This document shows positions 3,799 through 63,628 of a DNA stretch of 64,000 nt, in pieces; the stretch's first letter is position 1; each line of letters opens with the position of its first letter. Origin of the DNA: Rhipicephalus microplus (Eukaryota; Arthropoda; Arachnida; Ixodida; Ixodidae). A program made the position numbers and the translations under genes. The notes below the pieces were generated by a model that saw nothing but the letters and a program-made list of their open reading frames with translations, did not search any database and had not been told where the DNA came from. Location of the stretch: contig NC_134710.1 of assembly GCF_043290135.1 (NCBI RefSeq), forward strand, positions 322,311,017-322,375,016. The letters are read 5' to 3'.

Positions 3799-3913
<115 letters not shown>

Positions 3914-18300: not shown

Positions 18301-20550
18301 GAGAAAGCGGAATGCATTAGCGCTGAAAATTCTTCATGCGTTTGTGGTGTATTGGTCAGCGTGCCCGGTTTCTGCACTCGAAGGCGTGGTTTCAGTGGTT
18401 CAATTTCCCGGTCATGTACTTTCATCTAACATTTTGGTGGTATTCCTTCTGAGCTGCTCACGTGGCCATTTTAGGGCGTCATATTCATGATGGAAATGGC
18501 GTGCGTTCATTCTTTGTAGACGCTGGCACCGCATTTTCGACATGCTAAAAATAGCCAAACACTATTAGCCCTCTGCTCGGCAATACCATCATATAGTAGG
18601 AAACATGTGGAAGTTAATGACTGGTTTCATATTTAAACACTAAAGGGTGATCTCGGAGGTCACATACCGTGTCAAGCAGGTAACGCGGACACTTCCATGA
18701 AACGCTACCATAAGCACATAAGTACTACATGAGTAGGCCTAAATGAGAGGTAATGGCCTGATACGGTCGAAGAAAAGAAAGGCTCATAGCTAAGAAGCTT
18801 TGCTCTGTTCCTCTTAGGCGGCTCATCTCTCTTTGCTATCTCCCTCTTTGCAGATTGTCTTTTCTATGAAGTTGGAAAAAAGAAAAAAAGCACTCTTTCT
18901 TTGCACAATAACTCAGTTTACGCATGATGGATTCGAAAGCGTCTTGCGACAGAAGATTTGGGAGGTAGCACAGTAGAACAGTAAACTCAATTTTCTTTAG
19001 TCTGTAAGGGGGTTTAGTGCCCTTTGACATTCAGCATACTGGTATTGATCTAAGAAAAACAAATCATCTGATGACATGTATGATGTAGTCATTGATTCAA
19101 AGAGCAGAAGTTGTGATATGTATAACACAAATCTTGATATTTCTCGAAGGTGTGTCAGGTACGTCGTAACGCCCAATTTAACCGCGCCTGCCTCCTTCCT
19201 GCGGAACCTTTCATCCCTAGATCTTACGTTTTTCTTTCCTTGCTGGCACCGGCTCACGTCTTGGGTTCTCCTTAACTAAGCTTGTCCACCTACTTCAAGT
19301 TGTTCGAGAATCCTTTGTTCTCTGCGACACCATGGCAGCTGCGAGGGTCGCGAGCCAGTAGTTGTCAGGGTTAGAGTGAAATAAGCTGCTCTCGGGGCTT
19401 TGAATGGGAGACACATGCTCCCCCTTCCTTCGCCTCTTGTGCTCCTCGAGGCTCTTAGCTCACGTGAAACGCCGCAGACCTAGGCTTCTCCGCAAAGCTC
19501 TCCTTGGCAGTCTCCTTCGGCATGCCAGTCGCTCGCTATCGATCAGTCAGCATTCCACGCGCGCCGTGGCTTTGACGCATCGCTATCTCCTCCTGTAGAG
19601 GATCTTCCCTCTCAGCATACTGAGAGTATCGGTGAAGACTTGAGGAACGTCTTTCGCTGTGCCACTGCAAAGCGTCGACCCCACCTGGGCAGGCCAGTGG
19701 CTTTGATCACAGTTCCTGGCAGGTTGTACATAAGTCATTTTCTTGTTCCCTCCTCTCTTGCGTAAGTGAAAAGTAGAGGAGTGTTTCAAACAAAAGACGC
19801 CATCAGACTGTCCTTGCCTTCAATATGTGAAAGTCATCTTGCAACGGATGACGTTAACCGAAAAACAGAAAAACTATGAGTAGCGTCCAACTATATAGAC
19901 GTTCTTTTATGCATCCTGTTTCTTATTAAGTTAATATTAATTTGTATATTTCTCTTCTTCCGCCTTCCGTGAGGGCATGACATTCTCAGTCGATGGTCTT
20001 TCTTTATGCTATTCTTGGCACGACAAGTAAAACCATTTATCATTGTCGTCGATAACAAAAGTGGCGCCTTTACCGGGAGAATCTCCTTAGTGAAAGTATG
20101 TCTATGTACACTAATTTTACTTTGACATATAAGTGGGAACATACTTTTTTTTGTGTGTGTTGTAGCCCGTTGCGCCAGAAAGTGCCCGGTGTCGACGCTT
20201 TTTAGTGTTATCAATAGTTATATAATTTAGAACACGTACCAGTCGAGTGTTGAGTCATGCTAGCGCATAGATATCTCAGTTAGGCTTAAGTAGATACACA
20301 ATTTCAATAATATCCAATCCTGCCCGCATGACAACACAAAATAGCTTTCATGTATACGTAGGGCCATGTTCGATGAACACCTCACGACTTTTCATTTACG
20401 CTGCCGATTTATTTCACATATACCAATCGTCCAAAGCTATAGCTTTATGGCTTTCTTGAAATGAAGCAATGAGAGGTACGTGAAGACTACACTTCCATGT
20501 AAGATATGTATTCAGGGGGACAAAAAGTGAGACGTTGATTTTTCTTCTGA
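15330..20550. other. Unassigned sequence, 5.2 kb
   Basis: Many 60-111 codon open frames on both strands, none with motifs I recognise. Local AATAAA hexamers and T-rich runs occur but are not linked to a coding frame. It may hold long introns or unrecognised old repeats. Confidence 0.35.
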
Positions 20551-20552
20551 CT

Positions 20553-20664
20553 CGATTGATTGGTATGTGGGGCTTAACGTCCCAAAACCACCCGATGATT
20601 ATGAGAGACACCCTAGTAGAGGGCTCTCGAAATTTTGACCACCTGGGGTTCTTTAATACACTTC
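20553..20664 (-). mobile_element. Ruka-type SINE, 3' half
   Basis: On the minus strand, 'gttctttaat…ccaggtggtc', 'gagccctctac', 'gtctctcataatcat' and 'ttttgggacgttaagcccc' match the 3' half of the family. The end 'caatcaatcgag' gives the usual ATCAATCA tail. 5' truncated. Confidence 0.9.
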
Positions 20665-22664: not shown

Positions 22665-25000
22665 ACAATAGTACAGCATACTCTAAAAAAGTGTCAAGAG
22701 ACATAAACAACGAAAAAAAGCCAGGGCACAGCACATCGGTGCCCAGTAATGAAACCTAATGAGGGGCTAGTTGGTTGTTAGACATGTCAGCCAATCAGCA
22801 GAGTGAAGACGTTACTATTCTGTTGCTACATGGAATGTTTCGCCTTAAAAGCAAGTTCGGACAGAACACGAGGGCTGCTTGTGAAATCGTTAGAAAGAAA
22901 GTGATTACTGAGGTCATTGGTGTGTTCTCCATCGCACAGAAATTAATTTCGTAGCTGACAGGAGATGCTCAAAGAGACAGACCCACGTGTACCCTAAAGA
23001 CCTGTTAGGCCAGTTCTCTTTTCACCAGCACGGAAAGGCTACCTTTTTTTTGTTACCCCAGATTTTGCGTGAATACAATGGTGACCATTTATGTCCTGTT
23101 ATTTCAGTGCGGGCAATGCCGAGGACAATCAACCCGATGAGGTCCAGGACTCAGTCACGCTGCCCTGGTCTTCTCGTTATGCCCAGTGGCAATAATGAAT
23201 AGTGGGCACGCGCGCCTTTCGGCGGAGCAGTGTAGCGGCGATGAAGTAGTGGCCACACGACCGAGACACTTAATGAAAGCCAGATGAGCGCCGCGCCTGC
23301 TGTCTAAAGGACCAGACAAAGACACAAAGTGGACGAGACGTGTGACTCTTTTACTCTAGATTGGATGTGTCCCAATGAAAACAAGCGCTTGACAGTGTGA
23401 CTGGCAGAAGTGCTAACGCGAACAAAGATATAGTACTGGTGAGAGGAGGCGAGGCGGAAAAAGCCATCAATGAGTGGAAGGAAGCGTAATATAAGGGCAA
23501 AATGGTTGTGGCCAGGACCCAGTGATGAAAGGGGGACATGACCCTGAAGAGGTAAGTGGTGCCTCTGGGCCAATAGACTGAGCGATTCCGAAAGGTCTTG
23601 TGTCAATAAAGGGCAGCGACGTCGTCGAGAAGGCATTTACGATAGGCAGAGCTCGCGTAGCTTTGCACCCGTGCCAAATATGGATGATGAAGATCTCACA
23701 AAATCGCGTCTGGAGCAGGCCTTTCGAGGTGGACAGTTTCTCGCCACTGTTGAACCGAAAAAGGCAGTGACAGCGCCTTCGCAAAGGTACAGCGGCATCG
23801 AGGGGACGCAAGGAACGCGTCTTGGTCACAGAATTGAGCAAACACCGATGTGCTCACAACAGATGCTCCAGGATGAAATGGAGAGAAAAGACGCGACAGC
23901 AGCAGTCGAAATGCCAATCGTTTCGTGGGCTCGGGTTTCTGGTGATGAAATTTCTTGCCTGAAAGAAGCTGGGTGACAAACGCATTCGGGACAATTTTTT
24001 TTCAGAGGGCCGAAGGGCATTCCGCTTATTTGGCTCAGGAGGAAAGCGACATTCATTTCGGATCAACAGCTGTGTCTCGCAAGCTCCGCGCTCTATGTGG
24101 TAACCTTTACCCTCCCCCCCTCTTACTTTCTTCCTCTCTAAAGGCTCGCTCATCCACGTCCTCCATACAGCCTGTGCCCCAAGGGCATGACGCGTCAACA
24201 GCAATGGAACGTTGGGGGCGTACAGGTCGTTACGTCTTTTCGAAGTTCCACTTTTGAGATAGACAAGGCACTTTGCGAAGCGGATACGACAGTACACGGA
24301 GATGCTGAAAAAATTATATGCGCGCCGCAGCGCCGAGATGCCTCGCATGATGGCTTCGCGATGGCTAAATACTTAGGTTACACCAATTATATGGGCCCGA
24401 GGGCTCGAAAATATACCTTCAAATAGCGTTATATTGGCTGCTACTGCCCTGCTCTATGGTCGCAATGTAGAAATAATTGACAAAAAGCAAGAAACGAACT
24501 GATGCTAGAAAACATAACAAAAACACAAGACCAGGACAGACAACCATGAAGTTGTAGAAAACGGGGATAACATGGTATTTAGACGTGTAGTATATAGTGC
24601 TGAACCCCGAGCGCAGTGCAAGAGTACTTTTGGTGAGAGAACTCTGGGACTATACTCTGCGCGATAATGTTCTGCTTCGCAAGTACCCGAAAGATGGCCC
24701 TGGTCCCCCCCCCCTTTTTTTGGTGTAGTAAAGCCCCATGACGTAGGAAAGTAGCGGTGCTCATTTATCGTCGCCACAACACCTTCGCCGCGCCGCCAAC
24801 CTCCTACCTTATCACCCCCTCTTTCGCGGTGCCGCTCTGTGCATGTTGCTTGGTTGATATGGTGAGATAACGCAGTTTTCTCACATTTGGAAACCATCAC
24901 CTACGTGCCGATTGTACTTTGCGAAATTTGCCAGCAACTGGCCATGGTCGTCAGTCCACCGAGCCATCTATCGGCATGCCGCAAACGAGAAAATAATCAG
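22665..25000. other. Unassigned sequence up to the palindrome
   Basis: It holds overlapping open frames of 101 codons (+, 23671-23976) and 164 codons (-, 23854-24348), with no recognisable domain or conserved splice context. A run of C followed by T lies at ~24706-24721. I do not call a gene. Confidence 0.35.
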
Positions 25001-27258
25001 GGCCCGGATTCACAAAACTGACTTACGAAAACATTTTTACGCAAGAGAAATTTTGTTGCGTAAGTCGATTCACGAAACGAAAAAACGTCGTAAGTGGCCA
25101 TAGTTGCACATCGGCCACTGCAAATAAAGCGCGCTGTGACTGCCCGGGAACATGTCAGCGATGGTGATGCAGTTGCTATATTTGCTTACGTCACTGAAAA
25201 GTGCTCGTAAGTGGATTCACGAAGCGAAATTGTGCGTAAAAACAGCATGGCTGAGAGAAAATCCCAAGAGTGGTCCGGACCACTCTTAGGAACAATGTGG
25301 CTACTTAGAACCTGCTGCCGCAGCGGTATACTTTGATGCCCTGGCTGGTTTTGAGTTAATTCACGCCCGTTAAGGGCTGCCTGATGACTGCTGGTGCGTT
25401 TTTATTTCTTTCGGCGCTTCGAGCTTCGCGTGTTGTTTCTCTTGTACGCAGTGGATGGTGTTGACAACCACCACCGTCCAATAAGTTCGAAGTCGCAGTA
25501 ATTGAAGAATTCTATTTGGCGTCAATGGCATAAAACTACGCATGTAAAGATTTGTGGTTGGATGAAAACCAATCTGATACGTGAATGGTCGCTGCATTCG
25601 AACGCGACATGGCATAGGATCAACCTTATTTGTTACGTTGTTGTGTTGCGCCCCATCTCATCCAATGAAAAGTGCGACTCGAGATCCTTGCCTCATTGGT
25701 GGAAATTACCACCAAAGAGGTTAATGGGAGCACATTCTTTGCACGCTATTCGAAATAAAAATGAGAGGAAGTTTTCAGTGAGTGGTTCATAAAGTTTGTG
25801 CTCTAGTGTACTTTCATTGGCTCTAACTGTCCAATGGTTGCGATCTCTGAAATACAGCTGTCGATACACTTTGGGACGATCTGGAACAAAGCGTACTTTG
25901 TAAACCAAAGCCTATTAGGGGTGCGCGTGATTACGCATGGAACTACAAACAAATCATGCATCTTCACCCTCACTGTTCAGACACCGATATGGACCATGAT
26001 AATATGGCAAGCAATCGGAATAAAATGGCCCTAGTAACTTTGTATGACACCGAAAATATGCAAACCCTCACGATTCTGGAGCAAACCTTCGCTGAATTCA
26101 TCCCTGCGTCAATTACCAGCCATTTAACTTGGCGCACGAACATCATTCAAAGGTAGAGCGAGCCACTGACATGTATTTTGTGCGACGCAGCGGCCACTTA
26201 ACCTGAGAATAATAGCGTTGCGAAGGCGAATCCCCTGTCGCATGCTCTGATCGAAGCAGACGACAAACGCGAGCAGACGACGGCTTGGCCGACAGGCACA
26301 GCTTGTGATTGGTTGTGAAGCAATACCCTCTACATCAGCTCACTCCGTGACGATGCCAAAACACTTCTTTCATCTGGCACGCCTGTCCTGTTCGTCATAT
26401 CACCCCCCCTCGCACATAAGAGAAATTTTTTTCACGCCGTGAAAATAGTGCAAGTACTTTCTAAGAGCTCTCTTACGTGTGGTGCAGTTGTCGAAAACAA
26501 CATGGCGTCGTAAACAGCATATCGGTCGGTGCGACTTTCAGCAAATGCTTCTCGCACGAGTTACTTCAGCGTTTGACCGGATGTGTTGCGATTACAGCAG
26601 CTCTTTCAGTGCGTGTGAGCAGTGCGGAAAGCTGTGGCAGTGCAATGGTGTACGGTGAAGCGCAGCGAAGCCTGTGCGTCGGTGTGGTTATCAAGCGGGG
26701 ATCGGCGTCGATGAATCGACGGCAACTAGCACTCGAGAAGCCTGCAATGTGTGTTTGTGTGCCGGTAACAGTGCGTTCGCTTGACTTTCCAGTCTCTCAG
26801 TTGGGTGCTGTGCGACATTTCGGATTGACAGCGTTTTGACACGTTACTTGAGTGACCCCAAGTACGTACGGAAACGTATGAACTACGCGCTCGGTTCTTG
26901 CTTCGCCACTAGTTAGCCCGTACGCTTCTATTTACTTGAGAGCAATGTACTGTTCGGGAGTGAAACGATGTTCGTTGTGAACAGTGGTGCTGTGTTGACG
27001 TTCCAAGACTTGCGAACAAGCTGTGCTCGTGTCACCGAAAATTGAAAGACAGCGTTGATAACTGTTTTGCCCGGCGAAGTTGTGGTGGGGCAGCTTGGCG
27101 CTTTTGTTTATTAAGTCGTCACTTCTCCTTTTTGTGATAACCATAGTCCTAGCGCTGTGATGTGATCAACCAAAACTGCGAGATGCTACATTCTGTTGCG
27201 GATCGTGATACTTTGGAAGCGCGCCTAGACTGTTCTTCGGTAACAACTTGAGAGTTCT

Positions 27259-29812
27259 ATGTGGCAGCGAGAGCCCGTGAACGTCAAGCTTGCCTTCGGC
27301 CCCCAGAAAAAGCAAAGATTTCACCGGTGCCTTGCTTTGGATGAAGTTGTGGGCCAATATCGCCTAACTACAGGTTTCCGAGTTCGTCTGGCCATCGTTT
27401 TTCACGGCACTAGAGCCTTGACAACAGCCGGTCATGGCCAGTTCTTACACTTTATCAATGGACGTGCACGCCTGGCGAGCCCTTCATTGCTGTCATTGGC
27501 AGCTCCAATCTGCAGATGCCCTTTGCCTGTTGGCCGTACTTGGTTCCTCATGACACCGACGGCTACTAAATGCTGCCATCGGTGAGTTCACCTTGCAGAA
27601 CTAAATTTCAACAGTACTATAATTCACGCAGTTCTATAACGTGTGCAAGCTTTTAAGCCCATCAGATGTAATGTTTCTCTATGGTAAGTTGAAGCATGAA
27701 AAATATACTACTACTGTTATATACATACATATATTATGGAGCAAATACATAAAAAAATTTTGTGATTTGATACAAGTGAGCTCTTGTGTGATTATGAGGT
27801 TGGGCCTGTCGATTGACCACGTTTGATAGTTGGAAAGTTATTGTGAATTTATTTTTCAGAAGCCAGGTTGCACTTAAAAAATTTATGTTATTTTGGAAAA
27901 TTAGTTCTATAGACGATTACCACTGTGCTAGTACTATACTTCAGTAGGACATATATATTGCGGTACGTAAATTTTACATGAGGCTTCAGTTTATTTCAAA
28001 GTGATTATAGCAGATTGTGGTCACATTAACGAAGTGATAGCTTCCTCAAATAAGTATTAGAAGTGAGTGCTTTAATGATTGTTTTTAAATATCTCGTTTT
28101 TGGTTCTTCACAGATCGCAGAGATTGGTTTGTTAAGGTCCTGTGATTCATCGGTTGAACATTCTGGCACATCAATCCTCATCATTACTTGGAGCACCTGT
28201 ACAAAAATAGGAAGGACGCGTTCTCCCTAACTATGCAAGCCTATGTCACTGCTGGAACTGTTATCATTCAGCGGATGGGGCGTGGAAGCATGCATGGCAG
28301 CCTCATCTGGAAGGACTGCGATCTGCTTGGGAGCTTCGAGCGCACAAAACTGCCTAACGGCTGGCTGTAAGGTTAGTTTTTCTTTAATACATACGATTAC
28401 GTGAACACCACTTACTGTGCACAATTTGAAAACCCAAGCATGGTTGCTTTCAGTGGATACCTGTAATATTCTTACACATAATTCTTATTCAACATTTATA
28501 GAACTAAATTGCAAGATAATTGAGAATGTTGAAAGCTGAAAGCCTGCAGCTTATGAATGAAACTCCAATAATCTGAGGCTCAAAAGCTTGTGCTTTGAAA
28601 CGAGCACAAATACTTTGATTCCTTATTGAGCTCTCGAGCTTGTGACTCCCTCTGTGGATCAAGTGCTCTGGAAGGAAATAGCAAGTGGGTGAAAATTGCC
28701 TGGCTGTTCACAACTTGTAAGGAGAAAGACCTATTGAAGAAGCTTCAGATGACATAGGGCCAGTAACTGCATCTTTTACCTAATGTAGCTTTTTCTCTCT
28801 CAGTGCTGTTGCTTATGTTTCAGCCGAACATGTTCACCACGATTGCATAGTGATATATATTTTTCTACAAATTGTACCTGACATAAGTATGCATTGTTGA
28901 TCTCTAAAGGTGACGTTCAGTGTGTTTCAAAGCCATGGCTTCTCATTTCTCTGTCTGTGGCTAGCCTATTTCAGCAGCAGAGCGATGCAGCTAGCACACA
29001 TGCAATCCAAGTCATGGAGCGCTCCTTTGGTGTTCTGTGCAGGACGCAGCATATCCATCCGGCAAGACACTGGTATCAACAATAATGGTGAGTGTTGGTG
29101 GCACCTGTAGGAGCCCGTTGTGTTTGTTGCGTATGATTATTTCCCCTGATGAAGTGCATTTTTGAAAGGTTTTCTTCATTTAGAATAATAGATGTCCGCA
29201 ACAAGCACACTCATAATCCACAAGTTCTTTGTGTCTTCTAGACTGCCCATTTGCTCCTATACGCAGTACGGTGAGCTGGCTATGTCAGACAGCCTTAATG
29301 TTAGGAACATTGGCTGTTGCGTTGTAATGCAGTCTAACTTGTATTTCTTAGTGAACTTATTTGTGGTCTGCTTCTCGCACCTAGTGTAAAGTCAAAATAG
29401 AAGAAAATTTATTGGCTTTTTATGTCTGGCAGAAGTTTCATGCCTTCATCTATAACATTGTAGTTTTGCTCTTGTATCATATTAAATATATTTTCAGTCT
29501 TCACTGTTTGTGTGTGTGTGTGTGTGTGTGTTGAGGCTTGTCATTGGCTTCTGAAAATACAATATCTGTAAATATGAGCACATAATTGACAACTATACAC
29601 TCTTGCATGTAGCATGGTTGTAACAATGATCTGTATTTTTTTAAGTTCCAGCAGTAACAAGGGGTTTGGTGCTCCACGGTCATGTACAGTGTATCAAGAA
29701 CAGAGCACAGAAGACCAACAAGTCTAAAGGGACTGCCAGTGACTGTTCTCCTGCTCAAAGTTTACAACAGCAGAAAGAGCACATTGTGATGTCAGGAGCA
29801 GCTGCTGCTTAA
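27259..29812 (+). pseudogene. PIF/Harbinger-type transposase remains, left arm
   Basis: Four exon-like blocks with plausible splice sites. Block 1 (27259-27581, donor CG/GTGAGT) has DEVVGQYRLTTGFRVRL, similar to the N-terminal region of Harbinger transposases. Block 2 (28114-28371, after 'ttcttcacag', donor AAG/GTTAGT) has EHLYKNRKDAFSLTMQAY, GSMHGSL and LPNGWL, matching the family's 'NRKG-HSLN-Q…GS-HDS…GWLLGDSGY'. Block 3 (28910-29087, after 'ctctaaag', donor ATG/GTGAGT) has GDVQCVSKPWLL and VMERSFGVL, the last including the catalytic Glu. Block 4 (29652-29812, after 'agttccag') is an open C-terminal stretch ending at TAA. Defects: stops at 28143-28145 (shared with the right arm), 28155-28157 and 28368-28370 (both absent from the right arm), plus a frame change near the end of block 3. 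The first two catalytic Asp positions read Gly. A DDE transposase would cut and paste DNA in the nucleus; this copy cannot. Confidence 0.8.
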
Positions 29813-32800
29813 CTTCTTAGCAGTGCATTATTCAGCAGTTCATTTGCTTGCATTCAAAATTATTTAAATTTTGCATGGAAGATACCAACTATGACACTAA
29901 TTTAAAGGCTGCTGTAGTATTAGTGGGTAAATATTTTTGAGCTGAAGTTTTTAACATGTGTGTTAAGTGCCTGTGCGCCTCTACATTTACATTCCAGAAA
30001 TCACAGCATCCATGGTCGCCAATGGTAACTGTGTCTGCATTCTTTGTAGTACAAGAAGTAAAGCCATGGATGCAGTAATCATGTACTTAGTCGATGTAAT
30101 CCTTCAGTGTACACTCATTTGTATAGCACCAATGATGCCATGAGTGTATAAGCTCTGGGAAGTGAATCTGTGTGGATTATTTTATTTGGAAGGAAGTAGA
30201 TTATCACTACTCCTAGTATATCTTAACAGAAGATTTTAGTGCTTGGGTATTATCCCACTGCCTGTCCGTCCTTCAACAGTCTACTTATCTACTGTGTAAG
30301 TTTAACATTTTTAAATGTATACTTTGCTCGGATAGGTTTGTTCGTAATGTAATGCAAGTGACTTATCATCTATGCAGCTCTACTCAGACTAGAAATAAAA
30401 GTACTTATTTTTATATGTAGCTATACCATGCATTCACTTGTGTTTTTCTAGGTGCCTGTACAATTGTTTAGCCCTACAAAAGTGCTGGTATACTCTAATA
30501 TTGAATCTGGCATCTTAAAATATTTTGTTAGTGGAAGTAAGAATGTGTTTACAATCAATATTACTATCCTCAGATGAACTGTGAAAACTCTGTGGAAATT
30601 TATTTACATTTTTTGAACTTTGTGAAGGCAAATGTTGTTATGTTCTTTTATTGTGGTCCCTTTTTCATGCAAATGACACATAATTACTTTGCAGTGGCAT
30701 AGTATTAGTTGTTATTTTACACATATGTGCTGAGCAACATCGCAGTTGAGGCCAGCAGCAAGACATACATGCAGTGCACTGGAGCATCACCTCACATAGC
30801 GTACAGTCTTTGCCCACCAGTAAACTCAATATTTTTCAAGCAGACTAATAGACAGCTGTATGGGAACTGTGTTGATGTGCAAACTTTGAAGTCTTCTTGA
30901 GGAGTGTTTTTCATCATTTTTGTCCAAGTGAAGTAGCTACCCAAGGCCACAACTGGTGGGAATGTGGTAGTTTCCTCTCTCCAAAAGCACTCTTACCAGC
31001 TGCCTCAATGTTAGCATGGGGTGAATTCACGAACTGGAAAAATAATTGGTCTTTGTTTACTTGGTTGAAATAGTCACTTCCACCATTGAGCCACCACGAC
31101 GCGCCAGAATAGAAACTTTTAGCTAAATAAAGTTGATTCAACTTTTGAGAAGTGTTTTGGGGAAACGAAATAGCACTTATAGCTGTCATTATAAACACTG
31201 TTTGCACCAAGGAGCTTAGTAGCTTATAATTGTATTATTCATGTTTTGTCTAGAATTTACTCGTGCTGTGCCAACTTTCAGCCCAAGTGTCCTAACATGC
31301 TTTGTTAGTGGGTTGTGAATGAGCCAAGCTATGTAAATAAACAGAGTGATATTGCAGACATGTACAAAATATTGATGCACAGCCCTTTTCTTTAGCATGA
31401 CATTGTCAAGGGCTTTATTCTTGTGTTTTTTATAAAAACTGCTTGTCACTGGGCAGCAGCAGAAAACTATGCATCAAGCTTTTGCGAGATAATTCGAGAA
31501 ACACCGTGTTCAGACATAACAGTGCCGGTGGATATCTGTCGTAAGTTACTTTCTGTAGCATATTCAAAATGAGTGTATTAGAATTGTTGTTTTATAGCCA
31601 TTCATTTTAATATTTACACCTGAGTGTATGTATGTATGTATGGGTGTACATATGTATATGTGTGTGTGCGTATATGTATGTATGTATGTATGTATTTATG
31701 TCTGTATGTATGTATGTATGTATCTTTTAAATGAGAATCCGTTTATCATTGGTGAGTAAGTTTGGTAATGATATGGCTGAATTTGTTTCTAGTTATTTCT
31801 CTTTTGAGCCATTATACATTTCAATTTGTTTTGTGCTGCATAAAAATAAATGTAACCTTACAAAGAATATGTGTGTTCGAAGAAGTTTCATTTACCAACC
31901 TACAGTCATGGGCAAGAAATTGGGTAAAATGGAACGAAACTGCGAAGATTAGTTTCGAGCATAGCTACTCTACATGGCATATCTCGTACACATTGCGTTG
32001 GTTGAATATGTCGATTTCAACCTTTCAATTTTAATCAGAATAAGCAAGCTATCACCCGTGGTTGTATATGTGTGTGATATTTATGCATACTGTGATACCG
32101 GTTCGCAATTACAATTAAGGTCACAAACCTAGTCAAGCTGAATACACGATTTTTGTCCATGCACCTTTCATCTGCACTGGAACTGTTGTTAATAAAAAAT
32201 AAACTTCAGTTTAGAAATTTATTCTAATAGCCAAAAGCAGAGTATCTCTTTATCACACAAATCAAATTGCCATTGTTCTGTTCCACTCTGGACAATATGG
32301 GACCCTCTCAGCAGAACTCGATTAACTGCTATAGTTCATTTTAACCATTGACAGCGACATTACACTGAAGCGTGCAGCATGACAAATAGCGGGAGAGAAA
32401 ACACAAACTAATCACTCTGTTTGCATCAGCTCTAACTGTCCGTGCTCTTTGGTCTTGCTGCATGTCATGCTGCCCACCAAATTAGCACGAAAGCGTGCCC
32501 TACAAAGGCAGTCAACTTGGTTGCAAGCAGTTAGCTCACTGCATGTGTAGATTTTCTTCAAAACACCGTGAAGACTGATTGCTGGTCGAATATCTAAACA
32601 CGTGAAAAGTAATATTCCAGGTATGATATTGGTATTTCAGCACTGGACACTTTTGCGATAAGAGAGGATGGAGGAGGAAATTATCAACCCTGAATTGTTT
32701 AATTTTTGAAGGAGCACAATACAGCGCTTTTGGGTCAAAATGGGAGTACAAGAAGCAAGTGCGAAAGCCTACTTCTCAAAAAATTAGTACCCGCCACCAC

Positions 32801-32837
32801 GCATAATGTCAGGCCGGGCAACCTCTTGAAAAAAAAA

Positions 32838-32918
32838 AAGTGCTCAGTGATTCTGCGAATCGAACCAAGTACCTCCTAGATTGTAGTTGAGCGCTGTAAC
32901 CTCTCGTCCACTGCAGCA
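32838..32918 (-). mobile_element. tRNA-like SINE head, left arm
   Basis: On the minus strand it has an A-box-like 'gacgagaggttacagcgc', a long variable-arm region and a B-box-like 'ggttcgattcg', followed by a T-rich tail containing 'cactttttttt'. It resembles the 15.19-kb and 62.34-kb tRNA-like blocks. The same block sits at the mirror position in the right arm, so it was inserted before the arms separated. Confidence 0.55.
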
Positions 32919-34529
32919 TTGCTTGTGTTCGCCTTATTGCTGATATATCGTCATTCCTTCGAATGAAGCCAAATGCAAAAACGTCCCGTGAAACTTTGTC
33001 AAAAATAGAAAAAATAGTTAGAATGCGTTTTCCCAAGGTTACTAGAAGATAGAAACCGCCACGTGTGATTGTATAACCGTGCGCTATTTATTCTTGTACA
33101 TTACTGTCATGACGTTGGGATAGCCGGCTCCAACGTACGCTACCTTCTCATAGTTTTCCGAATATAGATAAGAAAATAAAAATATATATCGGCCTGTGAC
33201 AACGCTAATCAACTATTATGAGTTCACTGTCACTAGTGTCACTTTCACTAGATCAATGCTCAGTTTGCTTTCATTATCGTTATTTAGGAAAGTTTTGGCT
33301 CATTAACTCAACTCTCTTAATTAGCATTGATTCTCACACCTAAGGACAGTCACACTTCATCTCGCTTTCTGAGTGGCTGTCACTCTCATATAACGCGTAC
33401 TCCACTTTTTTATGCTCTCCGAGCATCTGACCCTGTTTTGCGGAGACTTTCCCTGACGTCTGCTGGGCCAGAAAATTGTCTTTATTATCTATCAATTTCA
33501 AGCTTTCGCGAAGCCGAAACGAGAGTCTCTCTCTCTTTTCATCCTTTTCGTACGTGTGATAACGTCTCTCGACCTCAAGACTCGTATACACGTCCCTTGC
33601 TTTGCGCACTCAAACAACGCTGGGCGAAATATTTGCACCGTGTTTTGTGAAAAGCATTAGCACTGAGACACCTCCCGACGAGTCTCCCTCATTTTACGTA
33701 GACATATACCTAAGCGTAAGCGTATGCACGTTCTCGCATTCCGGCTTTATAAAAATGCTGCGGTGCATGGAACCAGCGAAATTGCGCTCACAATTTCATT
33801 TGATTACTGCTGTTATCTATTTCCGCACAATTCGTCGGCAGGCACCAAAGTCGCTCATGTGTCTTGTAATAAGAATATTGTAACAAAGGCTACCTTTAAC
33901 TATAGGTACAAAACACCCTTACGTTCACCACTATACCGTGCTAGATTGCACCGAATTAGTTAAGTAGCAGCGTAGCTTCAATGAAATGTAAGGTAACTGG
34001 TCGCTTTAAGTAGGGGAAGACATTCGAGGCACATTTTCAAACATTACATGCATCCATTTATGTGTGGTTTCATTTATGTGGTACACCTGGAGTGTTGTTT
34101 ACTTGTCTTTGGCGAGATAGTGCATGGATTGCTCGATGACTTAAGGCCATCGAGCAATGTCGTTTTTAGCTACAGTCGTTGATGAAAGGTGAGTGCTTGG
34201 CTTTGCACAGCCCGCCAAAACGCCTATTACAGCGTACGCGGCATCCCGTAAGCGCTGTAGCAGACGCTCGCGGAACTGAAACTTAGATGCAGGAAATCAT
34301 TGGCTGTCATCGTATACTCTCGATGCTAGACGCTTTGCGTGCTACCTTGATATTATCGGCACACACTTCTTTCTTTCCTTGTCGTTTCATCAGCTATCAT
34401 GTGTCCTCCTTGCCCTCTTAAGTGCCGAATAAGTTAAATTCATACCCGCGCTATAGTAATCCCTCCAGATAAGAGAGCTTTTGGCTAAGAAAATGCGTAG
34501 CCAAAGAGAAAGCTTTGTGAATTCGGCCC

Positions 34530-34532
34530 CTG
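34530..34532. other. Palindrome centre: CTG spacer
   Basis: The two inner termini face each other across three bases: GAATTCGGCCC-CTG-GGGCCGAATTC. The spacer is the CWG-type triplet seen as CAG at both outer flanks. The junction itself is nearly perfectly self-complementary. Confidence 0.8.
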
Positions 34533-34554
34533 GGGCCGAATTCACAAAGCTTTC

Positions 34555-34579
34555 ACATTATTCACATTACAAAGCTTTC
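34555..34579. repeat. 25-bp right-arm-specific duplication at the palindrome tip
   Basis: The right arm reads 'ttcacaaagctttc' at 34541-34554 and then a second, altered version ending 'aaagctttc' at 34579 before continuing 'tctttggctac'. The left arm has only one. The extra copy lies 22 bp from the centre. Confidence 0.85.
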
Positions 34580-35140
34580 TCTTTGGCTACGCATTTTCTT
34601 AGCCAAAAGCTCTCTTATCTGGAGGGATTACTATAGCGCGGGTATGAATTTAACTTATTCGGCACTTAAGAGGGCAAGGAGGACACATGATAGCTGATGA
34701 AACGACAAGGAAAGAAAGAAGTGTGTGCCGATAATATCAAGGTAGCACGCAAAGCGTCTAGCATCGAGAGTATATGATGATAGCCAATGATTTGCTGCAC
34801 CTAAGTTTCAGTTCCCCGAGCGTCTGCTACAGCGCTTACGGGATGCCGCGTACGTTGTAAGAGGCGTTTTGGCGGGCTGTGCAAAGCCAAGCACTCGCCT
34901 TTCATCAACGACTGTAGCTAAAAACGAAATTCCTCGATGGCCTTAAGTCATCGAGCAATCCATGCACTATCTTGCCAAGTACAAGTAAACAACACTCCAG
35001 GTGCCCCACATAAATGAAACCACACATAAATCGATGCATGCAATGTAAGAAAATGTGCCTCGAATGTCTTCCCCTGTTTAATGCGACCAGTTACCTTACA
35101 TTTCATTGAAGCTTCGCCGCTACTTAACTAATTCGGTGCA

Positions 35141-35377
35141 GCCCCGCCGCGGTGGTCTAGTGGCTAAGGCACTCGGCTGCTGACCCGCAGGGCGCGGGTT
35201 CGAATCCCGGCTGCGGCGGCTGCATTTCCAATGGAGGCGGAAATGTTGTAGGCCCGTGTGCTCAGATTTGGGTGCACGTTAAAGAACCCCAGGTGGTCTA
35301 AATTTCCGGAGCCCTCCACTACGGCGTCTCTCATAATCATATAGTGGTTTTGGGACGTTAAACCCCACATATCAATC
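35141..35377 (+). mobile_element. Complete Ruka-type tRNA-derived SINE
   Basis: A 237-bp element. The head has an RNA polymerase III A box (tggtctagtggctaaggc, 35153-35170) and B box (gggttcgaatccc, ~35197-35209). The body matches the other copies in this window, and the 3' end reads 'gggacgttaaaccccacat' then ATCAATC. It is flanked by 15-bp direct repeats AACTAATTCGGTGCA at 35126-35140 and 35378-35392. The mirror site in the left arm (~33944-33960) carries a single uninterrupted copy, so the insertion followed formation of the palindrome. This is the best-preserved SINE in the window. It lacks coding capacity and would depend on a LINE for movement. Confidence 0.96.
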
Positions 35378-36428
35378 AACTAATTCGGTGCAATCTAGCA
35401 CGGTATAGTGGTGAACGTAAGGGTGTTTTGTACCTATAGTCAAAGGTAGCCTTTGTTACAATATTCTTATTACAAGACACATGAGCAACTTTGGTTCCTG
35501 CAGACGAATTGTGCGGAAATAGATAACAGCAGTAATCAAATGAAATTGTGAGCGCAATTTTGTTGGTTCCATGCACCGCAGCATTTTTATAAAGCCGGAA
35601 TGCGAGAACGTGCATACGCTTACGCTTAGGTATATGTCCACGTAAAATGAGGGAGACTCGTCGGGAGGTGTCTCAGTGCTAATGCTTTTCACAAAACACG
35701 GTGCAAATATTTCGTCCAGCGTTGTTTGAGTGCGCAAACAAAGCAAGGGACGTGTATACGAGTCTTGAGGTCGAGAGACGTTATCACACGTGCGAAAAGG
35801 ATGAAAAGAGAGAGAGAGAGGCTCTCGTTTCGGCTTCGCGAAAGCTTGAAATTGATAGATAATAAAGACAATTTTCTGGCCCAGCAGACGTCAGGGAAAG
35901 TCTCCGCAAAGCAGCGTCAGATGCTCGGAGAGCATAAAAAAGTGGAGTACACGTTATATGGGAGTGACAGCCACTCAGAAAGCGAGATGAAGTGTGACTG
36001 TCCTTAGATGTGAGAATCAATGCTGATTAGGAGAGCTGAGTTAATCCAAAACTTTCTTAAATAACGATAATGGAAGCAAACTGAGCGTTCATCTAGTGAA
36101 AGTGACACTAGTGACAGTGAACTCATAATAGTTGATTAGCGTTGTCACAGGCCGATATATATTTTTATTTTCTTATTTATATCTGGCAAACTATGAGAAG
36201 GTAGCCTACGTTAGAGCCGGCTATCCCAAAGTCATGACAGTAATGTGCAAGGTAAATAGCGCACCGTTACACAGTCACACGTGATGGTTTCTATCTTCTA
36301 GTAACCTTGGGCAAACGCATTCTAACTATTTTTTCTATTTTTGACAAAGTTTCACCGGACGTTTTTGCATTTGGCTTCATTCGAAGGAATGACGATATAT
36401 CAGCAATAGGGCGAATGCAAGAACTGCT

Positions 36429-36512
36429 GCAGTGGACGAGCGGTTACAGCGCTCAACTGCAATCTAGGAGGTACTTGGTTCGATTCGCAGAATCATTGAG
36501 CACTTTTTTTTT
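36429..36512 (+). mobile_element. tRNA-like SINE head, right arm
   Basis: Mirror copy of 32838-32918. A-box-like 'gtggacgagcggttacagc', B-box-like 'ggttcgattcg' (36478-36488), then a T-rich tail. Slightly closer to a tRNA than the left-arm copy. Confidence 0.6.
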
Positions 36513-37612
36513 TCCAAGAGATTGCCCGGCCTGACATTATGCGTGGTGGCGGGTACTAATTTTTTGAGAAGTAGGCTTTCGCACTTGCTTCTTTCACTCC
36601 CCTTTTGACCCAAAAGCGCTGTACTGTGCTCCTTAAAAAATTAAACAATTCAGGGTTCATAATTTTCTCCTCCATCCTCTCTTATCGCAAAAGTGTCCAG
36701 TGCTGAAATACCAATTTCATACCAGTTTTCACGTGTTTGGATATTCGGCCAGCAATCAGTCTTCACGGTGTTTTGAAGAAAATCTACACATGCAGTGAGC
36801 TAACTGCTTGCAGCCAAGTTGACTGCCTTTGTAGGGACACGCTTTCGTGCTAATTTGGTGGGCATCATCACATGCAGCAAGACCAAAGAGCACGGACAGT
36901 TAGAGCTGACGCAAACGGAGCGATTAGTTTGTGTCTTCTCTCCCGCTATTTGTCATGCTGCACGCTTCAGTGTAATGTCGCTGTCAATGGTTAAAATGAA
37001 CTATAGCAGTTAATCGAGTTCTGCTGAGAGGGTCCCCTATTGTCCAGAATAGAACAGAACAATGGCAATTTGATTTGTGTGATAAAGAGATACCCTGCTT
37101 TTGGTTACTAGAATAAATTTCTAAACTGAAGTTTATTTTTTATTAACAACAGTTCCAGTGCAGATGAAAGATGCATGGACAAAATTCGTGTATTCAGCTT
37201 GACTAGGTTTGTGACCTTAATTGTAATTGCGAACCAGTATCACAGTATGCATAAATATCCCACACATATACAACCACGGGTGATAGCTTGCTTATTCTGA
37301 TTAAAATTGAAAGGTTGAAATCAACATATTCAACCAACGCAATGTGTACGAGATATGCCATGTAGAGTAGCTATGCTCTAAACTGATCTTCGCAGGTTCG
37401 TTCCATTTTACCCAATTTCTTGCCCATGACTGTAGGTTGGTAAATGAAACAACTTCTTCGAACACACATATTCTGTGTAAGGTTACATTGATTTTTATGC
37501 AGTACAAAACAAATTGAAATGTATAATGGCTCAAAAGAAAAATAACTAGAAACAAATTCAGCCAAATCATTACCAAACTTACTCACCAATAATAAACGGA
37601 TTCTCATTTAAA

Positions 37613-37679
37613 ATATACATACATACATACATACATGCATGCATGCATACATACATACATACATACATACATACATACA

Positions 37680-37711
<32 letters not shown>

Positions 37712-37752
37712 CGCACACACACATAGGCATATGTACACCCATACATACATAC
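37613..37752. repeat. Microsatellite (ATAC)n, right arm
   Basis: ACAT/ATAC tetranucleotides with a few ATGC variants and a CA-rich interruption. The left-arm partner is (GTAT)n at 31625-31723, with a different length and interruption pattern. Confidence 0.95.
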
Positions 37753-39560
37753 ACTCAGGTGTAAATATTGAAATGAATGGCTATAAAACAATTCTAATAC
37801 ACTCATTTTGAATATACTACAGAAAGTAACTTACGAGAGAAACCCACCGGCACTTTTATGTCTGAACACGGTGTTTCTCGAACCATCTCGCAAAAGCTTG
37901 ATGCATCGTTTTCCGCTGCTGCCCAGTGACAAGCAGTTTTTATAAAAAACACAAGAATAAAGCCCTTAACAATGTCATGCTAAAGAAAAGGGCTGTACAT
38001 CAATATTTTGTAGATGTCTGCAATATCACTCTGTTTATTCACATAGCTTGGCTCATTCACAACCGACTAACAAAGCATGTTAGGACACTTGGGCTGAAAG
38101 TTGGCACAGCGCGAGTAAATTCTAGACAATACATGAATAATACAAATTATAAGCTACTAAGCTCCTTGGTGCGAACAGTGTTTATATTGACAGCTATAGG
38201 TGCCATTTCGTTTCCCCAAAACACTTCTCAAAAGTAGAATCAACTTTATTCAGCTAAAAGTTTCTATTCTGGCGCGTCGTGGTGGCTCAACGGTGGAAGT
38301 GACTCTTTCGGCCAAGAAAACAAAGACAAATTATTTTTCCAGTTCGTGAATTCACCCCATGCTAACATTGAGGCAGCTGGTAGGAGTGCTTTTGGAGAAA
38401 GGAAACCACCACATTCCCACCAGTTGTGGCCTTGAGTAGCTACTTCACTTGGACAAAAATGATGAAAAACACACCTCAAGAAGACTTCAAAGTTTGCACA
38501 TCAACACAGTTCCCATACAGCTGTCTATTAGTCTGCTTGAAAAATATTGAGTTTACTGGTGGGCAAAGAGTGTACACTATGTGAAGTGATGCTCCAGTGC
38601 AATGCATGTATGTCTTGCTGCTGGCCTCAACTGCGATGTTGCTCAGCACATATGTGTAAAATAACAACTAATACTATGCCACTGCAAAGTAATTATGTGT
38701 CATTTGCATGAAACAGGGACCACAATAAAAGAACATAACATTTGCCTTCACAAATTTCAAAAAATATAAATAAATTTTCACGGAGTTTTCACAGTTCATC
38801 TAAGGATAGTAATATTGGTTGTAAACACATTCTTACTTCCACTAACAAACTATTTTAAGATGCCAAATTCAATACTAGAGTATACCAGCACTTTTGTAGG
38901 GCTAAACAATTGTACAGGCACCTAGAAAAACACAAGTGAACGCATGCTATAGCTACATAAAAAAATAAATACTTGTATTTCTAGTCTGAGTAGAGCTGCA
39001 TAGATGATAAGTCACTTGCTATACATTATGAACAAACCTATCCGAGCAAAGTATACATTTAAAAAGTTACACTTACACAGTACATAAGTAGACTTTTGAA
39101 AGACGGACAGGCAGTGGGATAATACCCAAGCACTAAAATCTACTGTTAAGATATACTAGGAGTAGTGATGATCCTCTTCCTTCTAAATAAAATAATCCAC
39201 ATATATTCACTTCCCAGAGCTTATACACTCATGGCATCATTGGTGCTATACAAATGAGTGTACACTGAAGGATTACATTGACTAAATACATGATTACTGC
39301 ATCCATGGCTTTACTTCTTGTACTACAAAGAATGCAAACACAGTTACCATTGGCGACCATAGATGCTGTGATTTCTGGCATGTAAATGTAAAGGCACGCA
39401 GGCACTTAACACACATGTTAAAAACTTCAGCTCGAAAATATTCGCCCACTAACACTACAGCGGCCTTTAAATTAGTGTCATAGTTTGGTATCTTCCATGC
39501 AAAATTTAAATAATTTCGAATGCAAGCAAATGAACTGCTGAATAATGTACTGCTAAGAAG

Positions 39561-42109
39561 TTAAGCAGCAGCTGCTCCTGACATCACAATGTGCTCTTTC
39601 TGCTGTTGTAAACTTTGAGCAGGAGAACAGTCACTGGCAGTCCCTTTATACTTGTTGGTCTTCTGTGCTCTGTTCTTGATACACTGTACATGACCGTGGA
39701 GCACCGAACCCCTTGTTACTGCTGGAACTTAGAAAAATACAGATCATTGTTACAACCATGCTACATGCAAGAGTGTATAGTTGTCAATTATGTGCTCATA
39801 TTTACAGATATTGTATTTTCAGAAGCCAATGACAAGCCTCAACAAACACACACACAAACAGTGAAGACTGAAAATATATTTAATATGATACAAGAGCAAA
39901 ACTATAATGTTATAGATGAAGGCATGAAACTTCTGACAGGCATAAAAAGCCAATAGAGTTTCTTCTATTTCGACTTTACACTAGGTGCGAGAAGTAGACG
40001 ACAAATAAGTTCACTAAGAAACACAAGTTAGACTGCATTACAACAGAACTGCCAATGTTCATAACTTTAAGGCTGTCTAACATAGCCAGCTGACCATACC
40101 GCATATAGGAGCAAATGGGCAGTCTAGAAGACACAAAGAACTTGTGGATTATGAGTGTGCTTGTTGCTGACATCTATTATTCTAAATGAAGAAAACCTTT
40201 CTAAAATGCACTTCATCAGGGGAAATAATCATACGCAACAAACACAACGGGCTCCTACAGGTGCCATCAACACTCACCATTATTGTTGATACCAGTGTCT
40301 TGCCGGATGGATATGCTGCGTCCTGCACAGAACACCAAAGGAGCGCTCCATGACTTGGATTGCATGTGTGCTAGCTGCATCGCTCTGCTGCTGAAATAGG
40401 CTAGCCACAGACAGAGAAACGAGAAGCCATGGCTTTGAAACACACTGAACGTCACCTTTAGAGATCAACAATGCATACTTAAATCAGGTAAAATTTGTAG
40501 AAAAATATATATCACTATGCAATCGTGGTGAACATGTTCGGCTGAAACACAAGCAACAGCACTGAGAGAGAAAAAGCTACATTAGGTAAAATATGCAGTT
40601 ACTGGCCCTATGTCATCTGAGGCTTCTTCAATAGGTCTTTGTCCTTGCAAGTTCTGAAAAGCCAGGCAATTTTCACCCACTTGCTATTTCCTTCCAGAGC
40701 ACTTGATCCACAGAAGGAGTCACAAGCTCGAGAGCTCAATAAGGAATCAAAGTATTTGTGCTCGTTTCAAAGCACAAGCTTTTGAGTCTCAGATTATTGG
40801 AGTTTCATTCATAAGCTGCCGGCATTCAGCTTTCAACATTCTCAATTATCTTGCAATTTAGTTCTATAAATGTTGAATAAGAATTATGTGTAAGAATATT
40901 ACAGGTATCCACTGAAAGCAACTATGCTTGGGTTTTTAATTTGTGCACAGTAAGTGGTGTTCACGTAATCGTATGTATTAAAGAAAAACTAACCTTGCAG
41001 CCAGCTGTTAGGCAGTTTTGTGCCCTCGAAGCTCCCAAGCAGATCGCATTCCTTCCAGGTGAGGCTGCCATGCATGCTTCCACGCCACATCCGCTGAATG
41101 ATAACAGTCCGAGCAGTGACACAGGCTTGCACAGTTAGGAAGAACGTGTCGTTCCTATTTTTGTACAGGTGCTCCAAGTAATGATGAGGATTGATGTGCC
41201 AGAATGTGCAACCGATGCATCACAGGACCGTAACAAACCAATCTCTGCGATCTGTGAAGAACCAAAAACGAGATATATAAAAACAATCATTAAAAGCACT
41301 CACTTGTAATACTTATTTGAGGAAGCTATCACTTCGTTTAAGTGACCGAAATCTGCTATAATCACTTTGAAATAAACTGAAGCCTCATGTAAAATTTACG
41401 TACCGCAATATATATGTCCTACTAAAGTATAGTACTACCACAGTGGTAATCGTCTATAAAACTAATTTTCCAAAATAACATAAATTTTTTAAGTGCAACC
41501 TAGCTCCTGAAAAATAAATTCACATTACCTTTCCAACTATCAAACGTGGTCAATCGACAGGCCCAACTTCATAATGAAACAAGAGCTCACTTGTATCAAA
41601 TCACAAAAAACTTTTTATGTATTTGCTCTATAATATATGTATGTATATAACAGTAGTAGTAAATTTTTCATGCTTCAATTTACCATAGAAAAACATTACA
41701 TGTGATGGGCTGAAAAACTTGTACACGTTATAGAACTGCGTGAATTATAGTACCGGTGAAATTTAGTTCTGCAAGGTGAACTCACCGATGGCAGCATTTG
41801 GTAGCCGTCGGTGTCATGAGGAACCAAGTACGGCCAACAGGCAAAGGGCATCTGCAGACTTGAAGCTGCCAATGACAGCAATGAAGGGCTGGCCAGGCGT
41901 GCACGTCCATTGATAAAGTGTAAGAACTGGCTATGACCGGCTGTTGTCAAGGCTCTAGTGCCATGCAAAACGATGGCCAGACGAACTCGGAAACCTGTAG
42001 TTAGGCGATATTGGCCCACAACTTCATCCAAAGCAAGGCACCGGTGAAATCTTTGCTTTTTCTGGGGGCCGGAGGGAAGCTTGACGTTAACGGGCTCTCG
42101 CTGCCACAT
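39561..42109 (-). pseudogene. PIF/Harbinger-type transposase remains, right arm
   Basis: Mirror copy of the left-arm gene. Blocks on the minus strand are 41786-42109, 40994-41251 (258 bp, as in the left arm), 40278-40455 (178 bp, as in the left arm) and 39561-39721. Block 2 keeps a CIGCTFWHI motif where active Harbinger transposases have I-D-C-T-H. It also keeps CAA before the splice donor, where the left arm has TAA. It shares with the left arm the stop just before CIGC and the Gly in GSMHGSL, where active members have Asp. Block 3 retains SKPWLL and VMERSFGVL. Inactive. Its decay is independent of the left arm since their separation. Confidence 0.8.
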
Positions 42110-44333
42110 AGAACTCTCAAGTTGTTACCGAAGAACAGTCTAGGCGCGCTTCCAAAGTAACACGATCCAGAACAGGATGTAGCGTCTCGCAGTTTTGGTT
42201 GATCACATCACAGCGCTAGGACTATGGTTATCACAAAAAGGAGAAGTGACGACTTAACAAAGAAAAGCACCAAGCTGCCCCACCACAACTTCGCAGGGCA
42301 AAACAGTTATCAACGCTGTCTTTCAATTTTCGGTCACACGAGCACAGCTTGGTCACAAGTCTTGGAACGTCAACACAACACCACTGTTCACAACGAACAT
42401 CGTTTCACTCCCGAACAGTACATTGCTCTCAAGTAAATAGAAGCGTACGGGCTTACTATTGGCGAAGCAAGAACCGAGCGCGTAGTTCATACGTTTCCGT
42501 ACGTACTTGGGGTCACTCAAGTAACGTGTCAAAACGCTGTCAATCCGGAATGTCGCACAGCACCCAACTGAGAGACTGGAAAGTCAAGCGAACGAACTGT
42601 TACCGGCACACAAACACACATTGTAGGCTTCTCGAGTGCTAGTTGCCGTCGATACATCGACGCCGATCCTCGCTTGATAACCCCACCGACGCGCAGGCTT
42701 CGCTGCGCTTCACCATACACCATTGCACTGCCACAGCTTTCCGCACTGCTTACATGCACCGAAAGAGCTGCTGTAATCACAACACATCCGGTCAAACGCT
42801 GAAGTAACTCGTGCGAGAAGCGTTTGCTGAAAGTCGCACCGACCGATATGCTGTTTACGACGCCATGTTGTTTTCGACAACTGCGCAGCACATAAGAAAG
42901 CTCTTAGAAAGTACTTGCACTATTTTGACGGCGTGAAAAAAATTTCTCTTATGTGCGAGGGGGGTATATGACGAACAGGACAGGCGTGCCAGATGAAAGA
43001 AGTGTTTTGGCAACGTCACGGAGTGAGCTGATGTAGAGGGTATTGCTTCACAACCAATCACAAGCTGTGCCTGTCGGCCAAGCCGTCGTCTGCTCGCGTT
43101 TGTCGTCTGCTTCGATCAGAGCATGTGACAGGGGACTCGCCTTCGCAACGCTATTATTCTCAGGTCAAGTGGTCGCTGCGTCGCACAAAATACATGTCAG
43201 TGGCTCACTCTACCTTTGAATGATGTTCGTGCGCCAAGTTAAATGACTGGTAATTGACGCAGGGATGAATTCAGCCAATGTTTGCTCCAGAATCGTGAGG
43301 GTTTGCATATTTACGGTGTTATACAAAGTTACTAGGGTCATTTCATTCCGATTGCTTGCCATATTATCACGGTCCATATCGGTGTCTGAACAGTGAAGGT
43401 GAAGATGCATGATTTCTTTGTAGTTCCATGCGTAATCACGCGCACCCCTAATACGCTTGGGTTTACAAAGTACGCTTTGTTCCAGATCGTCCCAAAGTGT
43501 ATCGACAGCTGTATTTCAGAGATCGCAACCATTGGAGAGTTAGAGCCAATGAAAGTACACTAGAGCACAAACTTTATGAACCACTCACTGAAAACTTCCT
43601 CTGATTTTATTTTCCAATAGCGTGCAAAGAATGTGGTCCCATTAACCTCTTTGGTGGTAATTTCCACCAATGAGGCAAGGATATCGAGTCGCACTTTCAA
43701 TTGGGTGAGATGGGGCGCAACACAACAACATAACAAATAAGGTTGATCCTATGCCATGCCGCGTTCGAATGCACCGACCATTCACGTATCACATTGGTTT
43801 TCAGCTAACCACAAATCTTTACATGCGTAGTTTTATGCTATTGACGCCCAATAGAATTCTTCAATTACTGCGACTTCGAACTTATTGGACGATGGTGGTT
43901 GTCAACACCATCCACTGCGTACAAGGGAAACAGCACGCGAAGCTCAAAGCGCCGAAAGAAATAAAAACGCACCAGCAGTCATCAGCCAGCCCTTAATGGG
44001 CGTGAATTAACTCAAAACCAGCCAGGGTACCAATATACACCGCCGCGGCAGCAGGTTCTAGCCATATTGTTTCTCTCAGCCATGCTGATTTTACGCACAA
44101 TTTCGTTTCGTGAATCCACTTACGAGCACTTTTCGGTGACGTAAGCAAATATAGCAACTGCATCACCATCGCTGACATGTTCCCGGGCAGTCACAGCGCA
44201 CTTTATTTGCAGCGGCCGATGTGACAACCATGGTTTCTTACGACGTTTTTTCGTTTCGTGAATCGACTTACGCAACAAAATTTCTCTTGCGCAAAAATGT
44301 TTTCGTAAGTGAGTTTTGTGAATCCGGCCCCAG

Positions 44334-59072: not shown

Positions 59073-59429
59073 TATGTGTATAAATCTAATATATTCTTAA
59101 AATACGGTTCTTTTTCATAGTCATCGACGATAACTTGACTGTTTCATATGCTACGATCTGACTATACTTACCATTTTGAAATACCTCTGGTAGGTCTCTC
59201 CTTAGGCATGCGTAATGCTTTATAGATTTAAAATGGATCATTTATATTAAATTACGAACGGCTTTGTGATGACTATGATCACTGTGAAAGACGGAGAAGA
59301 CGTTATAGCTCACGTTTAGTAAGACCTATTAGCTCACACTCAATAATTTTCGGTAGTATTCTTAAAGTTCACGCCATTCTCGAATTTCGCCTGTGTAACT
59401 CACGACGTTCTCTTCATTCTTAGAAAAGT

Positions 59430-59530
59430 TAGTGAACCCCAGGTGGTCACAATCACCGGAGCCCTCCACTACGGCATCCCTCATAATCATATGGTGGTTT
59501 TGGGACGGTAAACCCCAAATATTAATCAAG
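59430..59530 (+). mobile_element. Ruka-type SINE, 3' half
   Basis: Begins 'gtgaaccccaggtggtcac', then 'gagccctccactacggcat', 'ttttgggacggtaaacccc' and the tail ATTAATCAA. 5' truncated, otherwise close to the 35.1-kb copy. Confidence 0.93.

Positions 59531-63419: not shown

Positions 63420-63628
<209 letters not shown>

Follow-up and report, generated by a model that had tools for sequence, protein, structure and literature searches.

A giant palindrome in the tick Rhipicephalus microplus: very probably two independently transposed copies of one Harbinger-kind element, head to head

A nearly spacerless inverted repeat occupies positions 25001-44330 of the 64,000-nucleotide stretch of Rhipicephalus microplus DNA analysed in this paper, which is called the window below. 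The palindrome very probably consists of two copies, transposed independently, of a high-copy DNA transposon about 9.5 kb long that appears to be non-coding and is of the Harbinger kind with a CWG target (NuwaI-like); they stand head to head with a single CWG between their inner tips. Three parts of this explanation are directly observed: the arms are bounded by terminal inverted repeats (TIRs), single copies of the same element are dispersed in the genome with 3-bp duplications, and the two arms are not sisters.

In a global alignment, the arms are 95.7% identical over 9,465 aligned bases, with 404 mismatches (242 transitions and 162 transversions), 23 indels and a K2P of 0.044. When the window was compared with itself by BLAST, inverted matches were obtained between 25306-33961 and 44060-35378 (95.0%) and between 25000-25260 and 44331-44070 (also 95.0%), together with a self-inverse centre at 33947-35140. 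The length and identity of the arms exceed chance, and the hairpin fold of the central 201 bases is better than that of 200 out of 200 shuffled sequences (z -21.6). The original prediction had described near-complete reverse-complement arms that meet at a 3-bp centre and had placed the outer ends at 25001 and 44330. Both statements are correct, and the centre, as seen in the sequence and the alignment, is a CTG at 34530-34532 (forward strand) that is shared between the two inner tips. The prediction also gave the divergence as 3-4%; the divergence itself is real, with a measured value of 4.3%. At 34555-34579, the symmetry near the centre is disrupted by 25 bp that were either inserted into the right copy or deleted from the left, with borders that depend on the alignment. 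The raised divergence at the centre in the first alignments was an alignment artefact, and the global alignment has 24 mismatches in the 600 bases there and 380 in the 8,865 bases elsewhere. Near its outer end, the left copy also carries a 32-bp stretch (25259-25290) with the perfect 20-bp palindrome AGAGTGGTCCGGACCACTCT, which is missing from the right copy.

Each arm is a complete terminal-inverted-repeat element, with the left copy at 25001-34529 on the forward strand and the right copy in the opposite direction at 34533-44330 on the reverse strand. This follows from two findings. Within each arm, one end repeats the other in inverted orientation, at 17 of 20 positions for the left arm and at 18 of 20 for the right, and when the whole 64-kb window is searched for the outer tip with up to 5 mismatches, the only four hits are those at the arm ends. 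Among 200,000 random segments of the length of the left arm, 6 reached 17 of 20 and none scored higher; random draws of the left arm itself should account for about four such hits. The TIRs are about 19-20 bp long in both arms. Tip matching places the outer tip of the left copy at 25000-25019 (forward strand), including the last base of the CWG flank, and its inner tip at 34511-34530 (reverse strand). The inner tip of the right copy lies at 34532-34551 (forward strand) and its outer tip at 44312-44331 (reverse strand). Tips begin with GGGCCG or GGCCCG, a strict GGG start being true for a part of them only. The order of the trinucleotides on the forward strand is CAG at the outer left (24998-25000), in a register taken from 14 exact 3-bp duplications at single copies, CTG at the centre, and CAG at the outer right (44331-44333), placed by sequence and alignment. 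The left flank of the left copy reads AAAATAAT. Near the outer end of this copy, two subterminal repeats CGTAAGTSGATTCACGAA are found on the forward strand at 25059-25076 and 25206-25223 (25059-25223 overall), and they are possible transposase-binding repeats.

A SINE insert of 252 bp lies in the right arm, accompanied by a perfect duplication of 15 bp (TGCACCGAATTAGTT); at the corresponding place, the left arm has the empty site. According to Rfam and the alignment, the insertion together with one of the two copies of the target duplication lies at 35141-35392 on the reverse strand of the right copy only, and a tRNA-like stretch was recognised inside it by Rfam at 35146-35218. A tRNA-like tick SINE, Ruka, is described in PMC3160391. 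The arm-specific SINE that had been predicted is therefore real. Because the arms diverge by 4.3%, carry this SINE with its target duplication on the right side only, and end exactly at the tips, a fold-back sequencing error is unlikely, as had also been argued. Several other repeats are present in the window. SINE-like dispersed stretches at 20547-20656, 59428-59529 and 63805-63997 are 82-89% identical to the right-arm SINE in the BLAST self-comparison, and perfect long microsatellites, (ATT)n, (ATA)n and (AT)n, lie at 1760-1857, 3800-3912 and 63529-63627. A 212-aa open frame outside the palindrome, at 13206-13841 on the forward strand, encodes a retroviral-type aspartyl protease (Asp_protease_2, 25.2 bits against a cut-off of 24.3) and is probably a retrotransposon remnant; a protein search with this frame retained 0 of 1,403 candidates at E 0.001. 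Searches of viral contigs with the SINE core and the outer tip, and of prokaryote genomes with the outer tip, gave no exact match.

The distribution of the element was examined in the window's own 3.26-Gb assembly, where the window is located on contig C11. The tip pattern GGSCCGRATTCACAAARCT has 1,031 exact matches in this assembly, compared with 0 for the reversed control. Among the first 100 of these tips, all on contig C1, 70 form 35 convergent pairs less than 25 kb apart, and 26 of the pairs are 9-11 kb long. The outer 261 bp gave 1,000 first-look candidates, of which 40 were scored at 98-100%, and an 801-bp piece of the arm interior gave 971, of which 40 were scored at 97-100%, the window being included in both cases. 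From the 971 interior candidates (40 scored) and the 1,031 exact tips, we infer that copies of the arm number in the hundreds. No title found by full-text searches of one open library names this element or the junction, and the transposon family may be undescribed within that library.

Twenty other genomic places were fetched, with both ends of the element recognised in 15 and no inner end in 5. Exact 3-bp target duplications flank 14 of the 15 two-ended copies, the exception being CTG/CAA. Two of these 14, L010 on C146 and L026 on C22, appear to represent the same insertion, with about 200 bp of matching flank on each side, which suggests an uncollapsed haplotype or a segmental duplication in the assembly. 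This pair was treated as one site, leaving 13 independent sites, of which 11 are CWG, one is ATG and one is CTA. The left flanks are A-rich and the right flanks T-rich, and the real target is longer than CWG. Assemblies of the same species with only one arm at this place had been put forward as part of a refuting test of the palindrome, and this test is partly answered by the single arms with target duplications of their own that exist elsewhere in the same genome.

The relationship between the arms was analysed with two trees. The first tree was built on the initial 5.15 kb, taken from the two arms and from 19 of the 20 fetched copies; L016 was omitted as part of it is internally duplicated. 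The second was based on the inner 1.5 kb, with 15 complete copies and the addition of three sides of two other junctions. The left arm belongs to a young group, with 98.7% identity to L012 over 5.15 kb and an end branch of 0.0064. The right arm is placed on a long branch (0.026 for the 5.15 kb, with a second value of 0.024), and its nearest copy, L011, is 96% identical. In the 5.15-kb tree, the distance of 4.1% between left and right is larger than 194 of the 210 pairwise distances, and when the 20 rows are ranked by closeness to the right arm, which is distant from all of them, the left arm comes 6th. Forcing the two arms into one clade lowered the log-likelihood by 156 (AU p 0.0001, 5.15 kb), and the same clade was rejected on the inner 1.5 kb (AU p 0.0002). 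The copies in the trees were chosen by similarity to the outer end of the left copy, so that too few relatives of the right arm may have been included. This bias does not rescue the clade, because the left arm has many relatives nearer than the right arm. Two database peptides from further copies, P0001 (source lgn) and P0002 (UniRef, Rhipicephalus microplus), pointed the same way, towards separate arms: of 200 codons, 7 agreed with the right arm, 5 with the left arm and 4 with neither, with 2 gapped codons and 2 P0002 residues at a frame change left uncounted. The two arms are distinct copies from a high-copy family that is dispersed in the genome, the left one young and the right one older. 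The single old palindrome of the original prediction is accordingly not supported, and since the arms are not sisters, their divergence does not date the palindrome.

These trees also bear on the possibility that both arms were made by one event in situ, through the copying of a hairpin-ended element or through an inverted duplication, and have diverged by 4.3% since then. The near-complete arms and the tiny spacer would agree with such an origin. The arms of a single foldback element or of a chromosomal inverted duplication should be each other's closest relatives, but both AU tests gave the opposite result, and the left arm is 98.7% identical over 5.15 kb to a copy elsewhere. An origin in situ is therefore refuted under the models used and is regarded as extremely improbable. 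The spacing of the mismatches was considered in addition. Their clustering, which was reached by 13 of 5,000 shuffles and by 1 of 3,000 at non-CpG sites, came largely from one microsatellite, and arm-to-arm gene conversion was rejected as its cause. Without the microsatellite, the clustering was reached by 138 of 3,000 shuffles (349 of 3,000 at non-CpG sites); the residue over all sites is a weak signal, and divergence that is only marginally clustered is what a single event in situ would also leave.

Junctions of the same form were sought elsewhere in the assembly with a pattern of any two tips separated by one W, with at most 3 mismatches, a setting at which more decayed junctions are missed. 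Seven genomic places matched, and none in the control. Two of them are exact inner-to-inner junctions, namely the window and C6:125864305. The original prediction that such structures are rare as mobile elements thus applies to the exact inner-to-inner junction and fails for the arm, given its inferred hundreds of copies. L035 is a direct-order junction in which an outer end meets an inner end, both of this family, and L034 links an outer end to a divergent relative of the inner one. In L031, L032 and L033, relatives of the outer end with 85-86% identity are joined to a partner that has a similar tip but otherwise shows no match to the arm. These three alike junctions lie within 1.6 Mb on one contig (C6:36.6-38.1 Mb), and perhaps represent a composite that has spread or was locally duplicated.

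The second palindrome spans C6:125854739-125878695, with some 4.7 kb of additional DNA in the right arm, as judged from the coordinates. It was read for about 1.5 kb on each side of the centre and in three 1.2-kb pieces, two of them at the outer ends. On the inner 1.5 kb, its arms are likewise rejected as sisters (AU p 0.0008), which is a further point against an origin in situ. As these arms are not sisters and differ by 4.9-5.5% from those of the window, the composite is not seen moving as a unit. Its trinucleotides are CTG-CAG-CAG (C6:125854736-125878698), compared with CAG-CTG-CAG in the window. Neither head-to-head pair has the same central base in all of its CWG flanks, while the duplications match in all but one of the 15 single two-ended copies. 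The second palindrome is also relevant to a possible assembly error, in which two repeat copies or two haplotypes would have been misjoined at the hairpin. High-copy repeats invite misassembly, and the insertion found on two contigs (L010/L026) indicates that some haplotypic or segmental duplication exists. However, the join in the window is tip-exact with one CWG, its arms are set apart by 4.3% divergence and by the SINE with its target duplication, and the second junction of the same form is present on C6 with other arms. An error of this type is considered very unlikely.

Under the explanation by two transposition events, both copies would have been moved in trans by a Harbinger-type transposase. 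The older right copy would have arrived first, at a CWG site (CAG), and the younger left copy would then have entered the CWG duplication at the inner tip of the right copy, in the opposite direction. Insertion into a duplication should leave three equal trinucleotides, and their absence from both palindromes counts against this course of events. The CTG in the window may have arisen if the arms recombined or a hairpin between them was resolved, flipping the single central base, and in the second palindrome a point mutation or another joining route would be needed for the mismatch between the trinucleotides. By a crude estimate, if all CWG sites were equal and had the density found in the window, about 0.003-0.009 chance insertions at the family's own duplications would be expected, compared with two head-to-head junctions and one direct junction observed within the same family. 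Since the real target is longer than CWG, this estimate overstates the excess of junctions; a longer target narrows the gap between expectation and observation and may not close it.

That tip-to-tip junctions seem commoner than this simple chance estimate would suit a different route, in which two independent copies were joined by an abnormal transposase reaction or by end joining, such as hybrid-end transposition or the loss of DNA between inverted neighbours. With such joining, the outer CWG flanks need not agree, as is the case in the second palindrome (CTG on the left and CAG on the right). The outer flanks of the palindrome in the window do agree (CAG/CAG), however, its odd centre is equally unpredicted by this route, and no trace of lost DNA was found on reading its junction, so we hold abnormal joining to be unlikely. 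It is also conceivable, though doubtful, that head-to-head junctions, instead of being random insertions, result when the transposase preferentially acts on CWG overhangs at its own ends and joins unrelated copies into giant near-spacerless palindromes with a free central base; these may then flip or break at the centre. In the favoured explanation of two separate insertions, the palindrome has no visible function of its own and arises incidentally, because the duplications that the transposon makes can themselves serve as its targets.

With regard to coding content, the search of six frames of both arms against Pfam, with stops read as X, revealed no domain over the cut-off. The lowest E-values, 0.032 and 0.026, were those of BRCA2_TR2 at corresponding places of the arms, and remained below the family cut-off. 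No frame longer than 150 aa occurs in either arm or in 16 of the 20 fetched places; such frames were found only in L013, L019, L020 and L021, which are four of the five places without a recognised inner tip. A 124-aa stop-to-stop frame near base 1,466 is among the four longest frames in 13 of 22 rows (the arms and 20 copies). Near-identical sequence would give the same recurrence, and the substitutions between the arms number 6, 5 and 7 by codon position. For 11 frames shared between the arms, the substitutions at the three codon positions are 41, 27 and 48; in neither set, both of them small, can a clear third-position excess be seen. Because neither arm has a Pfam domain over the cut-off, the element is taken to be non-autonomous, and at most a non-autonomous derivative of the NuwaI kind. 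Elsewhere, the genome is rich in transposases of the Harbinger type: PF13359 gave 2,553 candidates in the assembly, and all 150 that were scored are over the cut-off, many of them without stops. In the control, 1 of 14 genomes matched, a Bacteroides. In a thin sample of 100 of the 1,031 tips, all on C1, and 20 scored PF13359 hits on C1, no tip and hit were within 10 kb of each other.

One of the closest known systems is the NuwaI group, reported in animals within the PHIS superfamily, which comprises PIF/Harbinger, ISL2EU, Spy and their kin (PMC4482050). According to that paper, NuwaI elements have 3-bp CWG target duplications and TIRs of 12-61 bp that usually start with GGG; the autonomous candidates have a mean length of about 4.5 kb, and most of them code for a DDE transposase together with a Myb/SANT protein. 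The tick element shares the 3-bp CWG duplications (11 of 13 independent sites, 14 of 15 copies exact) and a TIR length within this range, and a part of its tips starts with GGG. In contrast to NuwaI, it is about 9.5 kb long and has no recognised transposase or Myb/SANT coding sequence, and the sections of the paper that were consulted name no arachnid among the NuwaI hosts. The zebrafish Harbinger3_DR is described as integrating at the palindromic AAACACCWGGTCTTT (PMC3016246), and the tick element, with CWG at 11 of 13 sites between A-rich left and T-rich right flanks, resembles it in its target.

Long inverted repeats of mobile origin are also known from foldback-type transposons such as Galileo. 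Their repeats lie within one element, whereas each tick arm is a whole element with TIRs of about 20 bp. Teratorn of fish likewise has long inverted repeats with transposon tips at the outer and inner borders, but it is 41-182 kb in size (PMC6431247), with a unique region between the repeats and with its own transposase and herpesvirus genes. In the tick palindrome, the repeats abut and coding sequence is not recognised. The clustered MITEs of pineapple (PMC8449440) are similar in that independent insertions of the same family adjoin each other, with a preferred target beside earlier copies. They differ in being small and linked by (TA)n, while the tick pair consists of two 9.5-kb elements that share one trinucleotide.

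The palindrome is a natural by-product of transposition and not a new kind of chromosomal structure. What looked like an exceptional palindrome can now be tested as an instance of self-targeting by a transposon. Two such junctions in one genome constitute natural long sites capable of forming hairpins, and the age of the younger arm can set a bound on when each arose. Beyond the palindrome, the tick genome harbours a transposon that appears to be non-coding, probably in hundreds of copies; at about 9.5 kb, it is large beside the average of about 4.5 kb for the autonomous NuwaI candidates (PMC4482050).
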